Source of the DNA: Kineosporia babensis
GTDB taxonomy: Bacteria > Actinomycetota > Actinomycetes > Actinomycetales > Kineosporiaceae
DNA: 64,000 nucleotides
Assembly: GCF_021129305.1 (NCBI RefSeq)
Contig: NZ_JAJOMB010000012.1
Span: forward strand, 1-64,000
Reading direction: 5' to 3'
The first letter of the stretch is position 1; the number at the start of each line of letters is the position of its first letter. The position numbers and the translations under genes were made by a program. Shown here in pieces: positions 6,788 through 22,279 of the stretch. The notes under the pieces are model-generated. The model did not search any database and was not told where the DNA came from. It saw only the letters and a program-made list of their open reading frames with translations.

Positions 6788-7225
6788 TCACCGGGGCAGA
6801 GCGGCCAACGTTGGCCGAAGGGTCTTCGCATATTCCGTGGCGGCAGGGCGCAGGGCCCGGCACTCCTCTGCAGTCAGGTATTCACTGCTGAGCAGGATCA
6901 GGCCAAGAATGTGAACACCGCTCATGGTCGACGGGTCGGTGGCAGCCATCGCGTCTCGGTCGCCTTCGACGCTTCTCAGGGCTGCTTCCACCATCCAGGC
7001 CTGAACCTGCCCCTCGGACAAGGCAGCGGCCTGTCGGCAGAATCCGCGCCGCTGGTCCTCGTTCAAGCGCTCAAGCGCATACCGGGAGGCTACCGAAAAG
7101 GAGGCCAAAGACGCGGCCAGGGTGCCCACTTGGTCCTCGTCATTGAAGGCAGACTCAGCGGCGTCTACGTCGAAGGGCAGGAACCCGGCGACCAGGCCCT
7201 CCAGCGGCGGGCCGCTCTCAGCCAT
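6788..7225 (-). CDS. Hypothetical helical protein, 145 aa
   Basis: An all-helical, acidic, Ala-rich soluble protein (MAESGPPLEGLVAGFLPFDV at the start), with no signal or membrane segment. It begins 2 nt after the stop of the gene at 7228-7650, so the two are co-translated. Both are similar in size and general character. Together with the membrane-linked helical protein upstream they form a three-gene set. I do not recognise the family; an immunity- or chaperone-like role is only a guess from the context. Confidence 0.6.
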   Translation of the reverse strand: MAESGPPLEGLVAGFLPFDVDAAESAFNDEDQVGTLAASLASFSVASRYALERLNEDQRRGFCRQAAALSEGQVQAWMVEAALRSVEGDRDAMAATDPSTMSGVHILGLILLSSEYLTAEECRALRPAATEYAKTLRPTLAALPR

Positions 7226-7227
7226 CT

Positions 7228-7650
7228 TCAGTTCTCATCCTCGAGAGTGTTCAGCAGCGCCATGCTCTCGCGGATGAACTCCTCGACTGCAGGGCCGGCG
7301 AGGCCCAGGTCGTTCACGATGGCGTAGGTGAGAAGGTTCTGGGTTTCCGTGAGCTCCGCGATCGGGACGTCATCGACCAAGCCTTCCTCGCCCAGCCCGT
7401 CCATAATGGCCAGCTCGGCGAGGACCGGGTTGAGCGCGTCTGACTTCACCCACTTGCCCCGAACATGCCCGACGAACTCGCGGGCTTCATCAGGTGAAGC
7501 GCCGTCCTCGAAGCGCTTCTCCAGAGCGGTCGAGAAGGCAGCGATCGACGTGGTGACTGCAGTCTTGGCCCCCAGCTCAGCGATCGGGACGTTGTACGCG
7601 CCATCCAACTGGAGAATCCAGCGGACGTAGTCTTCTGCCTTGCTTGACAT
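7228..7650 (-). CDS. Hypothetical helical protein, 140 aa
   Basis: It starts at ATG 7650 (a GTG at 7653 is also possible). The product is predicted to be entirely helical and acidic (for example FIRESMALLNTLEDEN at the end). It sits between the coiled-coil membrane protein gene and the 145-aa gene, with 80 bp and 2 bp gaps. No known domain is seen. The arrangement of one anchored helical protein and two small acidic soluble proteins is reminiscent of effector/immunity sets but is not diagnostic. Confidence 0.6.
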   Translation of the reverse strand: MSSKAEDYVRWILQLDGAYNVPIAELGAKTAVTTSIAAFSTALEKRFEDGASPDEAREFVGHVRGKWVKSDALNPVLAELAIMDGLGEEGLVDDVPIAELTETQNLLTYAIVNDLGLAGPAVEEFIRESMALLNTLEDEN

Positions 7651-7730
7651 CACAGCCCAATCTGTTGCGGCCCGGCCATCGGACTCTAGTTCTTGTGTGC
7701 TTACGGATATTGGTGAACAGAGCCGCAGCG

Positions 7731-8429
7731 CTACGTTGGTGGCGGTTCTTCACCCTCGGGAAACTGCTGTGGGGTCTGGAAGGCGCGCTTTCTTCGTCGA
7801 GCCATCTCTCGTGCCCCGAAGTAGACGACGCCAAGGCCAATGCCGGCGCTGGCCAACGAAGGGGCCTCGATGCCGGGACCCGGTGCCGCTGATCCGGATG
7901 CCGCTTCGTGAGTTCCGGCCGAGGTATTGGTGGGAGGCTCAGGCGCCTTGATCACCTTCTCGGCGAAATCCGTTCCCCTGTCCTGAAGCTCGCCGACCAG
8001 ATCTTCAGCGTCTTCAACCTTCTTGGCGGCCCGGGTGGCGGCCCGCTGCGCGGCACCAGGTTTCTTGACCTTCTTGCTCCGGTAAGAATTCCTCGACTGA
8101 ACAGGCGTTGGGACGGCTGTCGGATCGGTGCTCGCTGACATGGGGCCGGGCGAAGCACCCGACGCCCCGGAGCCACTGGTGGAGAGGCTGGCTATGAGGG
8201 CTTGAGTCTGCCCTGCCTGAGCAGAAGCGCCTTTCAGATCGGCGGTCAGACGGGCGAGATCGTCCTTGGCCTGATCTGCCCGCTCCAGGGAGGCCTGGGC
8301 ACCCAAGGCTTCCAGCGCGTTGACCACGTCTTGAGCCTTCTGGGACGCCTCGTCGCAACGGTCGATCGCCTCATCGATCGAGGCAGCCAAACCACCGACA
8401 CGCTTCGCGAGGTCCCCGATCCCCGACAC
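7731..8429 (-). CDS. Helical protein with C-terminal membrane segment, 232 aa
   Basis: The GTG at 8429 is chosen because GGAGGG lies 8 nt upstream; longer in-frame starts read through the intergenic DNA. Residues 1-85 form amphipathic helices (IGDLAKRVGGLAASIDEAID and following), like the N-terminal helical regions of actinobacterial secreted or polymorphic toxin proteins. Then come a Ser/Pro/Lys linker with SKKVKKPGAAQRAATRAAKK, a second helical part, and one hydrophobic stretch (ASAGIGLGVVYFGA) followed by RRRKR. No catalytic domain is seen. It heads the three-gene group running to 6788. Confidence 0.6.
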   Translation of the reverse strand: MSGIGDLAKRVGGLAASIDEAIDRCDEASQKAQDVVNALEALGAQASLERADQAKDDLARLTADLKGASAQAGQTQALIASLSTSGSGASGASPGPMSASTDPTAVPTPVQSRNSYRSKKVKKPGAAQRAATRAAKKVEDAEDLVGELQDRGTDFAEKVIKAPEPPTNTSAGTHEAASGSAAPGPGIEAPSLASAGIGLGVVYFGAREMARRRKRAFQTPQQFPEGEEPPPT

Positions 8430-8605
8430 CAAGCTGTCCCTCCGCCACGACCGAGTTGTGCGCGTCCCAAACCTACCGAAAGTGGCATTTGGCGACCAGG
8501 GGTTATGGCGGTTGGCGCGGCATCTACGCGACCAGACGCCTTCGGGCGTCCCTGGAGCCGGGGACGGCTGGGACCGGCGGCCGAAGACCCTCGGTGAGCC
8601 AAACG

Positions 8606-8650
8606 TCCAAAAGCAAAACAGACCCGGCCCCCGCCGAAACGGGAGCCGGG
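8606..8650 (-). terminator. Terminator of the groES-groEL operon
   Basis: An imperfect GC-rich hairpin (arms near 8623-8631 and 8641-8650) lies directly after the groEL stop. On the minus strand it is followed by a T-rich run (complement of AAAAGCAAAACA at 8609-8620), giving a standard Rho-independent terminator. Confidence 0.75.
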
Positions 8651-8668
8651 CCTGCAATTACCAGTGGA

Positions 8669-17633: not shown

Positions 17634-19223
<1,590 letters not shown>

Positions 19224-19229
19224 CTTCAA

Positions 19230-19273
19230 GGGCCCGGTGCTTCGCAGGAACTCTCCGACGAAGCACCGGGCCC
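19230..19273 (+). terminator. Terminator of guaB
   Basis: A perfect 15-bp stem (GGGCCCGGTGCTTCG at 19230-19244 with CGAAGCACCGGGCCC at 19259-19273) and 14-nt loop directly after the guaB stop. No T run follows. The next gene starts only 14 nt later. Confidence 0.8.
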
Positions 19274-19287
19274 GTAGTCTGTGGGGT

Positions 19288-20427
19288 ATGACAGCGGCAC
19301 TGAAATCAGTACGGATCACCGGCCTGACTTCGGTGCACGACTGTGAGCTCTCCCTCGAAACGCCGGTCAGTGTGCTGATCGGGCCCAACGGCTCCGGTAA
19401 GAGCAATCTGGTCCAGTCGTTCGAGATGCTGGGCCGCATCGTTGATCAGCAGCTGCAGACCTTTGTCGTCGAGCAGGGTGGTCTCTCCAATCTGCTGCAC
19501 CGATCGGCCCGGCCTGGACTGAGTGCGGGCGAGATCGGGATCGATATCTGGGGTGCCGATGAATTCGGAGCTCAACTCGGGTATCGCGCAGTGGTCCGGC
19601 CCGGGCCCGGGGATCAGGGGCTGATCACCGAATACCTGCGGTCCCGCTCACCGGAGCGTGAACTCGAGCAGGTCGGGCCAACCACCCGGGAGAGTCTGGT
19701 CACCGCCGGCGTCGACCACCCGGTTTTTCCGCCTGAGATTCGTTCGGCGATGACCGCAGTCCTGACCGGCTGCCGGGTGTTCCACTTTCATGACACCAGT
19801 TCGGATGCTCCGGTGAAACGCCGCACGGATGAGGCGGACAATCTTTCCCTCGCGCCGGATGCCGCCAACCTTGCTCCGCTTCTCGCCCGTCTACAGAACG
19901 AAGTTCCGGAGACTTATCAGCGGATCGTCCGGACGGTGCGATCGGTAGCACCCTTCTTCGGGAGCTTCGTGCTGAAAGCCGAGTCCGGAAGAATGCGACT
20001 ACGCTGGCAGGAAGAAGGACTCGACGGGGTCTTCTCAGCTGATGCGTTGAGCGATGGCACCCTCAGATTCATCTGTCTGACCACCCTGTTGCTGCAGCCG
20101 GACCCACCCAGCACCATCGTCCTGGACGAGCCGGAACTAGGACTGCACCCATTCGCCATTGATCTCCTGGGCAGCCTGATCCGGAATGCGGCGGTCGAGG
20201 ACCGAAAGATCATCGTGGCCACCCAGTCGGTTACGCTGCTCTCGCATTTCCGGCCGGAAGAGATCGTGGTCATCGAACGCGGGGAACAAGGGACGTCAGC
20301 CCAGCATCTGGACGTGCAAGATCTGGATGACTGGCTGGCCGACTATTCTTTGGGGGAGTTGTGGGAGAAGAATGTGCTGGGCGGGCGGCCGCGCTCGAGC
20401 AGGACGAATCCGCCGGCGCCGATCTGA
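19288..20427 (+). CDS. AAA/ABC-type ATPase (AAA15/OLD-like), partner of DUF4276
   Basis: The 379-aa protein has Walker A GPNGSGKSN (residues 32-40), an ABC-signature-like ALSDGTLRFICL, Walker B STIVLDEPELGLHP, and a switch-like IIVATQSVTLLSHF. Its tail (SLGELWEKNVLGGRP) is typical of ATPases that co-occur with DUF4276 proteins. The family resembles the ATPase halves of OLD-type and PARIS-like anti-phage systems, where an SMC-like ATPase gates an effector. The ATG at 19288 is 14 nt after the guaB terminator; a TAGTCT box 7 nt before it suggests a leaderless start. Codon use is less GC3-biased than in guaB and guaB3, consistent with transfer. Confidence 0.88.
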   Translation: MTAALKSVRITGLTSVHDCELSLETPVSVLIGPNGSGKSNLVQSFEMLGRIVDQQLQTFVVEQGGLSNLLHRSARPGLSAGEIGIDIWGADEFGAQLGYRAVVRPGPGDQGLITEYLRSRSPERELEQVGPTTRESLVTAGVDHPVFPPEIRSAMTAVLTGCRVFHFHDTSSDAPVKRRTDEADNLSLAPDAANLAPLLARLQNEVPETYQRIVRTVRSVAPFFGSFVLKAESGRMRLRWQEEGLDGVFSADALSDGTLRFICLTTLLLQPDPPSTIVLDEPELGLHPFAIDLLGSLIRNAAVEDRKIIVATQSVTLLSHFRPEEIVVIERGEQGTSAQHLDVQDLDDWLADYSLGELWEKNVLGGRPRSSRTNPPAPI

Positions 20428-20431
20428 ACCG

Positions 20432-21094
20432 ATGAAGCGGATCGCTGTCCTGGTGGAAGGGCAGACCGAGGAACGCTTTGTCGAGCAGATTCTGCAGCCT
20501 CACCTCAATCCGTCTTCCGAATTCGACGGCTTCTGGTTGCAGCCCATAGTGGTGATGACTTCACGAACTCCATTAGGGGCCAAGAACCGGGGCGGGGGCG
20601 GCTGGTCCCACTACGACCGGGACCTGAGGCGATTACTCGTCCAAAAGCACTGGTACCGAATCGGACTTTTGCTGGACTACTACGCCTATCCCGCAGATGC
20701 CCCGGGCGTGCGAACAGCCGGTGCTGGAAGAACCCGGCACCAGCAATTACTCGAGGCGCTGGCCCAGAAGTATCCGGATCCCCGCTTCGTGCCGGGGGTG
20801 GCTCTTCACGAGTTCGAGACCTGGGTCATCGCGGCGCTGCTGGCGGTCCGCCCGTCGCTGGGTGGTCCTGAAGTCCACGAACGGCTGCAGGTGGTCGCCG
20901 GAGAGCACGCGGGTGACCTCGAACTGATCGACGACGGCCCGGCCACAGCACCGTCGAAGCGGCTGAAGGACGCCTGGCCCGGGTATCTCAAGACAGTCGA
21001 CGGCATCGACGCACTGCGGGAGTCCGGGCTGGAGAAGATTTCGGACGACTGCCCGGTACTCGGGAACTGGATCCGGCGGCTCGCCGAAGGCTGA
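20432..21094 (+). CDS. DUF4276 family protein, putative effector of the ATPase
   Basis: The 220-aa product starts 4 bp after the ATPase stop. The N-terminus RIAVLVEGQTEERFVEQIL is the family hallmark and resembles the first acidic motif of TOPRIM-type nuclease domains. Later acidic motifs are LLLDYYAYP and VALHEFETWVIAAL. Inference: it is the effector, possibly a TOPRIM-like nuclease, controlled by the ATPase. It ends 63 bp before guaB3. I know no established activity for DUF4276. Confidence 0.85.
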   Translation: MKRIAVLVEGQTEERFVEQILQPHLNPSSEFDGFWLQPIVVMTSRTPLGAKNRGGGGWSHYDRDLRRLLVQKHWYRIGLLLDYYAYPADAPGVRTAGAGRTRHQQLLEALAQKYPDPRFVPGVALHEFETWVIAALLAVRPSLGGPEVHERLQVVAGEHAGDLELIDDGPATAPSKRLKDAWPGYLKTVDGIDALRESGLEKISDDCPVLGNWIRRLAEG

Positions 21095-21157
21095 TCATGG
21101 CTCTCCCTAGACACGGCGCTGCCACGTGAGCCCACCCCTATCGGTAACCTGCTGTTC

Positions 21158-22279
21158 GTGACTGAGATCGAGATCGGCCGGGGCAAGCGAGGCCGGCGCG
21201 CCTACACGTTCGACGACATCGCGATCGTCCCCAGCCGGCGGACCCGCGATCCCGAAGAGGTGTCGACGCACTGGCAGATCGACGCCTACCGTTTCGACCT
21301 GCCGATCGTGGCCGCCCCGATGGACTCGGTGATGTCGCCCACCTCGGCGATCGCGATGGGCAACCTGGGCGGTCTCGGGGTGCTGGACCTCGAGGGCCTG
21401 TGGACCCGGTACGAGGACCCGGCCCCGCTGCTCGCCGAGATCGCGGGCCTGGAGCCGGCGGTGGCCACCCGGCGCATGCAGGAGCTGTACGCCGAGCCGA
21501 TCAAGCCCGAGCTGATCGTGGAGCGGATCAAGCAGATCCGGGACGGCGGCGTGACCGTGGCGGCCGCGCTCACCCCGCAGCGCACCCAGGAGTTCTGGAA
21601 GACCGTGGTGGACGCCGGGGTCGACCTGTTCGTCATCCGCGGCACCACTGTGTCGGCCGAGCACGTCTCTGGCCGGGCCGAGCCGCTGAACCTCAAGCGT
21701 TTCATCTACGAGCTCGACGTGCCGGTGATCGTCGGCGGCTGCGCCACCTACACCGCGGCGCTGCACCTGATGCGGACCGGCGCGGCCGGCGTGCTGGTCG
21801 GCTTCGGCGGTGGCGCCACCCACACCACCCGCGACACGCTGGGTATCCACGCCCCGATGGCGAGCGCCGTGGCCGATGTGGCCGCCGCCCGCCGCGACTA
21901 CATGGACGAGTCCGGCGGCCGCTACGTGCACGTCATCGCCGATGGGGGACTGGGCCGCTCGGGTGAGATCGTCAAGGCGATCGCCTGTGGCGCCGACGCC
22001 GTCATGCTCGGCGCCGCGCTGGCCCGGGCGTCCGACGCTCCGGGCCGCGGTTTCCACTGGGGTCCGGAGGCGCACCACCCGTCGGTGCCGCGCGGTACCC
22101 GGGCCCAGGTCGGCACGGTCGGCACCCTGGAGGAGATCCTCTACGGTCCGGGCCGGGTCGCCGACGGCACCACCAACCTGATCGGGGCGCTGCGCCGGTC
22201 GATGGCCACCACCGGCTACTCCGACCTCAAGGAGTTCCAGCGGGTCGAGGTCGTCGTCTCGCCGTACCAGCCGAGCTGA
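21158..22279 (+). CDS. guaB3: GuaB3 family IMP dehydrogenase-related protein
   Basis: The 373-aa protein has the IMPDH/GMP reductase barrel (YTFDDIAIVPSRRTRDPEEV, PIVAAPMDSVMSP, VIADGGLGRSGEIVKAIACG) but no CBS domains. I see no GSICTTR catalytic-cysteine motif; the loop regions read IRGTTVSAEH and VGFGGGATHTT. Actinobacteria typically carry it as a second copy beside guaB, and its own role is unclear; some GuaB3 proteins elsewhere have IMPDH activity. GTG 21158 has no good ribosome site, but TAACCT lies 7 nt upstream, as for a leaderless start. A strong terminator follows. Confidence 0.92.
   Translation: MTEIEIGRGKRGRRAYTFDDIAIVPSRRTRDPEEVSTHWQIDAYRFDLPIVAAPMDSVMSPTSAIAMGNLGGLGVLDLEGLWTRYEDPAPLLAEIAGLEPAVATRRMQELYAEPIKPELIVERIKQIRDGGVTVAAALTPQRTQEFWKTVVDAGVDLFVIRGTTVSAEHVSGRAEPLNLKRFIYELDVPVIVGGCATYTAALHLMRTGAAGVLVGFGGGATHTTRDTLGIHAPMASAVADVAAARRDYMDESGGRYVHVIADGGLGRSGEIVKAIACGADAVMLGAALARASDAPGRGFHWGPEAHHPSVPRGTRAQVGTVGTLEEILYGPGRVADGTTNLIGALRRSMATTGYSDLKEFQRVEVVVSPYQPS

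Follow-up and report, generated by a model that had tools for sequence, protein, structure and literature searches.

PARIS is a defence system in which an ATPase, AriA, is paired with AriB, a TOPRIM protein of the DUF4435 type. According to two reports, its ATPase detects a phage protein, for example Ocr, and releases the TOPRIM nuclease, which cuts host tRNA (PMC12409363; PMC12839542), and a review gives PARIS as a proposed Class 4 of OLD systems in which each domain has a gene of its own (PMC10568477). A further set of systems is named HEC, for Hma-embedded candidate (PMC10855318; PMC12988326); a citing paper describes several HECs, HEC-06 included, as active, and a different paper, on phage, only lists HEC-01 among its findings in Desulfovibrio piger. 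A literature search that left most subscription papers and preprints outside its reach returned nothing naming DUF4276, and no literature on Mad3 or Mad4 was found. Here we analyse a stretch of 64,000 nucleotides from Kineosporia babensis (contig NZ_JAJOMB010000012.1; the whole stretch is called the window) that carries an ATPase gene followed by a DUF4276 gene. The pair is best read as a PARIS-like defence unit made up of two genes and belonging to the candidate system HEC-01, a reading to which we attach a probability of about two in three.

The two proteins and a proposed mode of action

An initial annotation of this DNA described the ATPase and DUF4276 genes as lying 4 bp apart between two genes that we take, from family knowledge of such proteins, to be guaB and guaB3; coordinates, motifs and gene order proved exact (Table 1), each gene of the pair being open from an ATG at its first listed base to a stop codon ending at its last. 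The ATPase carries the Walker A motif GPNGSGKSN and the C-terminal tail SLGELWEKNVLGGRP, and matches Pfam AAA_21 (E 1.1e-29). Its best PADLOC profile is HEC-01A (PDLC04175; 2e-119, residues 3-368 of 379), which scores far higher than the AriA profile (6e-29), and Walker A, SDG[TS], DEPELGLHP and TQS are conserved. The DUF4276 protein, marked by the motif VEGQTEERF, matches Pfam DUF4276 (E 1.6e-31) and has HEC-01B as its best PADLOC profile (PDLC04188; 4.9e-58, residues 1-218 of 220). Judged by these profiles the pair belongs to an already catalogued candidate defence kind, HEC-01, and its own genome holds one full-length ATPase of the HEC-01A kind and one DUF4276 gene.

That DUF4276 is a TOPRIM-like effector had been proposed at the outset, and several observations now support it. 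Residues E9, E13, D82, Y84, E127, E129 and K187 are invariant in 18/18 DUF4276 sequences, and the invariant acidic motifs E-x3-E, D-x-Y and E-x-E stand in OLD-like order and spacing. E9 directly follows a predicted strand (residues 3-8), the position of the N-terminal catalytic Glu of TOPRIM, and in a profile comparison, where DUF4276 matches OLD-like TOPRIM domains, it is aligned to their Glu. The TOPRIM DxD site corresponds to D82-x-Y84, in which the first Asp is retained and the second has become Tyr. OLD, GajA and AriB are among the best fold matches of the predicted structure; a structure unlike any nuclease, named earlier as a refuting outcome, was not found. No Foldseek match reached E<=0.001, sequence searches of the PDB with the window protein and with an 18-row profile gave no useful match, and DUF4435 was absent both from the Pfam matches of the window protein at E<=1 and, as PF14491, from the window's own genome. 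Together, the invariant residues, the OLD-like TOPRIM profile match and the fold matches make DUF4276 a likely TOPRIM-like nuclease; the fold is graded as likely, not proven, because the structure model is shallow. A likely enzymatic role, that of an OLD-type TOPRIM nuclease, would thereby be offered for a domain of unknown function that occurs in 23 of 296 genomes of the class (21 of them above the Pfam cut-off), with E9, E13, D82, E127, E129 and K176/K187 as its candidate residue set.

The predicted structure of the ATPase is weak (pLDDT 60.3), and its fold matches, which include the heads of SMC, Rad50 and RecN together with PtuA and AriA, do not separate these families. Matching the former as well as AriA, the model would also suit a cellular repair or RNA-processing pair composed of a RecF/SMC-like ATPase and a TOPRIM partner, with no role in defence; an archaeal OLD-family ATPase is reported to be apparently not antiviral but needed for the cell cycle (PMC12796447). 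DUF4276 is, however, too sparse for a housekeeping function at the frequency given above, and a relative is present in none of five same-genus neighbours, which leaves such a role distinctly improbable.

The logic of PARIS, an ATPase sensor joined to a TOPRIM nuclease, provides by analogy the best reading of the window pair, and the unit probably acts by abortive infection. In this scheme a putative ATPase oligomer would hold the DUF4276 nuclease silent until it detects a sign of phage, which might be that a restriction or BREX-like system resident in the cell is under attack. An ATP-dependent rearrangement would then free or activate the nuclease, which would cut nucleic acid by two-metal catalysis, either tRNA (as AriB) or DNA (as OLD), and this cleavage would stop growth before any phage is released. 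In this view the guaB-guaB3 junction is a tolerated landing site, outside the mechanism.

The guaB-guaB3 junction

guaB and guaB3 had been held to be neighbours in relatives, and a search there for empty sites had been advised. In 5/5 same-genus genomes the two genes are indeed 24-132 bp apart with no pair between them, which, with the PADLOC HEC-01 match, favours the original view of a mobile two-gene ATPase-plus-effector unit; a cassette universal at this junction with vertical codon use was not found. Among 98 relatives, the own genome included, the DUF4276 protein was matched in three (the own genome, G061 with a true pair, and G079 weakly), and among 396 genomes of the phylum likewise in three (the own genome, G264 with a true pair, and G228 weakly). 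G079 and G228 were set aside as pairs, being weak partial matches with no ATPase relative in the stretches fetched around them. GC content at third codon positions (GC3) is, as had been remarked, lower in the pair (ATPase 0.73, DUF4276 0.76) than in guaB (0.97) and guaB3 (0.94), but it ranges from 0.56 to 0.85 across eight related pairs from other genomes (the DUF4276 frame taken for L025 in this comparison was too long). Low GC3 is therefore partly a family trait and a weak sign of recent arrival, and its value as proof of recent import is reduced accordingly.

The same junction is occupied in Kribbella, which the search tool ranked in the same class, not the same order, as the window genome. 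The pair is present in five of 38 Kribbella genomes, K. catacumbae and K. sindirgiensis among them, and lies between guaB and guaB3 in all five; in G827 both genes have shifted reading frames. Among 26 non-carrier junctions, in a survey with 7 of the 38 genomes outside it, the two genes are 28-150 bp apart in 20, and six have longer gaps of 607-2982 bp holding other sequence. For 30 loci of family f24 the gap is <=108 bp in 13 and 343-1206 bp in seven; the pair was found in none of the 30 within the 1.5 kb flank, inside which ten have no guaB end. Other DNA of 1.3-3 kb was seen at the junction in Kribbella G895, G906, G857 and G836 (L116-L119), with hypothetical proteins in G895, G857 and G836 that resemble one another by eye. 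Unrelated DNA also occupies it in G007 (L023; ~2.6 kb with a DedA-like gene) and G014 (L029; 1.1 kb with an exonuclease-like gene), both genes being named by eye.

In a tree of the ATPase (20 rows, the broken G827 copy left out), the window and four Kribbella copies form one group with support of 93/93, slightly short of what the tool counts as strong, and the guaB-resident clade of pairs may have a single origin. On a guaB3 tree of 31 of the 38 Kribbella genomes the carriers are scattered, requiring five changes, at least four of them forced by well-supported branches; shuffled carriers required a mean of 4.8 changes, and 500/500 shuffles were as low. Synonymous divergence (dS) among four Kribbella carriers is 0.76-1.74 for the pair, compared with 0.23-0.28 for guaB and 0.21-0.39 for guaB3; a sigma-factor gene close by has 0.15-0.52, and the gene that follows it 0.38-0.56. 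By all four flanking genes L022 and L079 are nearest (sigma-factor dS 0.147), whereas by nucleotide identity of both pair genes L021 and L079 are. Since codon bias lowers the dS of the flanks, this conflict in topology is better evidence than the excess of dS. A single gain followed by vertical descent inside Kribbella is disfavoured by the scattered carriers and by a pair dS above that of the four nearby genes. The scattered carriers, the greater divergence of the pair and the conflicting nearest neighbours point instead to exchange or independent gain, and the pair has probably entered the junction more than once. Its presence at one site in two orders may be due to recombination guided by the flanks, to convergence, or to an ancient presence followed by loss. 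In the four intact Kribbella copies the ATPase has a ratio of nonsynonymous to synonymous divergence of 0.07-0.14, and DUF4276 one of 0.15-0.27; by this measure purifying selection acts on both proteins while the pair as a whole comes and goes. A housekeeping junction seemingly entered repeatedly by a defence unit makes integrase-free gene movement testable.

The recurrence of one junction in the window and in 5/5 Kribbella carriers of a different order might alternatively signify that the position is functional, the pair sensing guanine-nucleotide synthesis or being co-regulated with it. We give this almost no weight: relatives stand beside topA-like (L024), groEL-like (L085) and pglW (L025) genes and on plasmids, the junction takes other DNA in the six of 26 non-carrier Kribbella loci noted above, and the ATPase gene has its own promoter-like element and is separated from guaB by a hairpin. 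That hairpin had been described as a terminator that may keep expression of the pair low. It is real as a structure (-46.3 kcal/mol for an 81-nt stretch, 0/200 shuffles as stable), but a T run is lacking and the structure is absent from the terminator scan list. Strong hairpins also lie 3' of guaB in three of the five pair-free same-genus junctions (G001, z -7.5; G003, z -5.1; G004, z -3.4), with none in the two of 24 nt (G002 and G005), so the hairpin of the window is probably the 3' end structure of guaB itself. A repressing role was rejected as its main reading, given the hairpins at pair-free junctions and the leaderless-type element that follows it.

This element, TAGTCT-N7-ATG, begins one base after the hairpin. 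TANNNT precedes the start by 6 or 7 nt in 7/7 non-Kribbella actinomycete pairs (the window, L024, L025, L083, L084, L085 and L075), against 14 of 1213 plus-strand ATGs at that spacing in the same loci, some of which are the pairs themselves; the five Kribbella copies have GGAGG before the ATPase in its place. The pattern suggests a putative leaderless promoter belonging to the pair. guaB3 has an equivalent layout, TAACCT-N7-GTG, which is intact beside the insert, and the TAACCT hexamer stands just before guaB3 in 5/5 pair-free same-genus junctions. In four of the five Kribbella copies (L021, L079, L082 and L081) a TTG...TGACAA-like inverted motif, possibly an operator, occurs ~40-70 bp before the ATPase start in otherwise divergent DNA.

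Table 1. Features of the locus, in window coordinates
Feature	Position	Strand	Remarks
guaB (IMP dehydrogenase), left flank	17718..19223	+	97.6% identical over aligned part to same-genus guaB in L006
Hairpin 3' of guaB	19230..19273	+	z -5.6; without T run; strong hairpins also in 3/5 pair-free same-genus junctions
TAGTCT, putative leaderless-type -10 element, 7 nt before ATPase ATG	19275..19280	+	
OLD-type ABC ATPase (HEC-01A), 379 aa, putative sensor/regulator	19288..20427	+	Pfam AAA_21, PADLOC HEC-01A
DUF4276 protein (HEC-01B), 220 aa, putative TOPRIM nuclease effector	20432..21094	+	Pfam, PADLOC HEC-01B
TAACCT, putative leaderless-type -10 element, 7 nt before guaB3 GTG	21145..21150	+	
guaB3 (IMP dehydrogenase family protein), right flank	21158..22279	+	98% identical to same-genus guaB3 in G001

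Relatives in other genomes, plasmids and phages

Within the class, an OLD-type ATPase match was found <=1.5 kb upstream on the same strand at 16 of 19 DUF4276 loci (L140-L158, the other four of the 23 matches being left out). This count includes L153, which appears truncated and retains only the front of the ATPase and the end of the DUF4276 gene; the three loci without an upstream match are L147, at a contig edge, and L151 and L155, both judged from lists of open reading frames. When searched for with Pfam in the same way, DUF4435, which is the effector domain of PARIS, occurs in 2 of the 296 class genomes, and DUF4276 is about ten times commoner in this sample. A wider proposal, which we hold only tentatively and think on balance doubtful, is that guaB-guaB3 is an integrase-free exchange site used by homologous recombination and that, in actinomycetes, stand-alone ATPases of the OLD type have DUF4276 as their main partner. 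If this were true, conserved flanks would guide the pair in and out, the same clade would re-reach the site across orders, and DUF4276 would fill in actinomycetes the place held elsewhere by DUF4435.

Twelve plasmid records carry a relative, all at <60% identity, and in 8/8 plasmids read (Pseudomonadota and Cyanobacteriota) the ATPase gene is directly upstream; the order ATPase then DUF4276 is shared by three phyla, on the plasmids of two and in actinomycetes. The pair is found among restriction-like genes on three of the eight plasmids and adjoins a full-length PglW in actinomycete G264; in all, four of 13 non-guaB loci (L024, L025, L083-L085 and the eight plasmids) have it in or beside restriction or BREX-like genes. 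Co-occurrence with defence islands, which the initial annotation had proposed to look for, is in this form seen for some relatives; the copy of the window is solitary. On Aeromonas veronii pHX3 (L034, 4972-11722) the pair lies between type III modification and restriction genes, and on the Nostoc plasmid pCENA543b a Piwi-domain gene is several kb from it.

Relatives at restriction loci fit a guard role there, but the window copy stands alone. The relatives on the 12 plasmid records would accord with a toxin-antitoxin-like stabilisation module, in which the ATPase would neutralise a toxic DUF4276 nuclease and addiction would maintain the two on plasmids and chromosomes, defence being at most a by-product. 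The neighbours of the pair are suggestive in this respect, since vapBC adjoins it on an Acinetobacter plasmid of 10,958 bp, a parA/parB-like pair directly precedes it in Scytonema, and parA/parB is ~1 kb away in Nostoc, and the Pfam description of AAA_21 mentions the AbiEii toxin. Most close kin nevertheless lack the pair (it is in 5/38 Kribbella and 0/5 other same-genus genomes), which is odd for addiction, and the restriction-locus settings would go unexplained; G838, where DUF4276 is broken and the ATPase open, fits either view. We consider a stabilisation module unlikely and retain the PARIS-like defence unit. At the G838 locus (L085, 5712-7484) the DUF4276 gene is in pieces beside a groEL-like gene, and from the state of the two frames the effector decayed before the ATPase.

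No relative of the window DUF4276 protein was found in 50,697 phage records; that search aside, the ATPase has weak matches in five phage records. Of three scans of IMG/VR, one returned a single locus with the pair (L133), one returned none, and one returned six ATPase loci. In L133, a putative viral contig, the pair (6898-8660) lies between repressor-like and phage-type genes, named by eye.

Comparison with described systems

The window ATPase is similar to Mad3, the ATPase of the methylation-associated defence system MADS (PADLOC mad3, 7.7e-21; NCBIfam, 2e-25), but at 89.8 bits it is far below the NCBIfam cut-off of 420, and the pair is adjoined by guaB and guaB3, not by MADS genes. With OLD and the GajA protein of Gabija the pair shares the same two domains, with catalytic residues in the same order and at near-same spacing; in those proteins, however, the domains form one chain, whereas here the ATPase and the TOPRIM-like domain are split over two genes. 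Besides the Tyr at the second Asp of DxD, the window protein differs from them in having Glu at the T506 position, and where a UvrD-like gajB follows gajA, the window pair is followed by guaB3. PARIS has the same division into two genes, but its AriB effector is a DUF4435 TOPRIM protein and that of the window belongs to DUF4276.

The closest counterpart is HEC-01 as catalogued in PADLOC-DB 2.0.0, an HEC-01A ATPase with an HEC-01B DUF4276 protein. Both window proteins match it nearly full length, as do both proteins of the copies at L021, L024 and L030, and the gene order is the same, the HEC-01B-type gene lying directly downstream of the HEC-01A-type gene after a 4 bp gap. The setting differs, in that other members are found among restriction genes and the window copy is solitary between housekeeping genes. 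To this candidate system the present analysis adds a likely TOPRIM assignment with candidate residues, a recurrent guaB-guaB3 site and a putative leaderless-type start.
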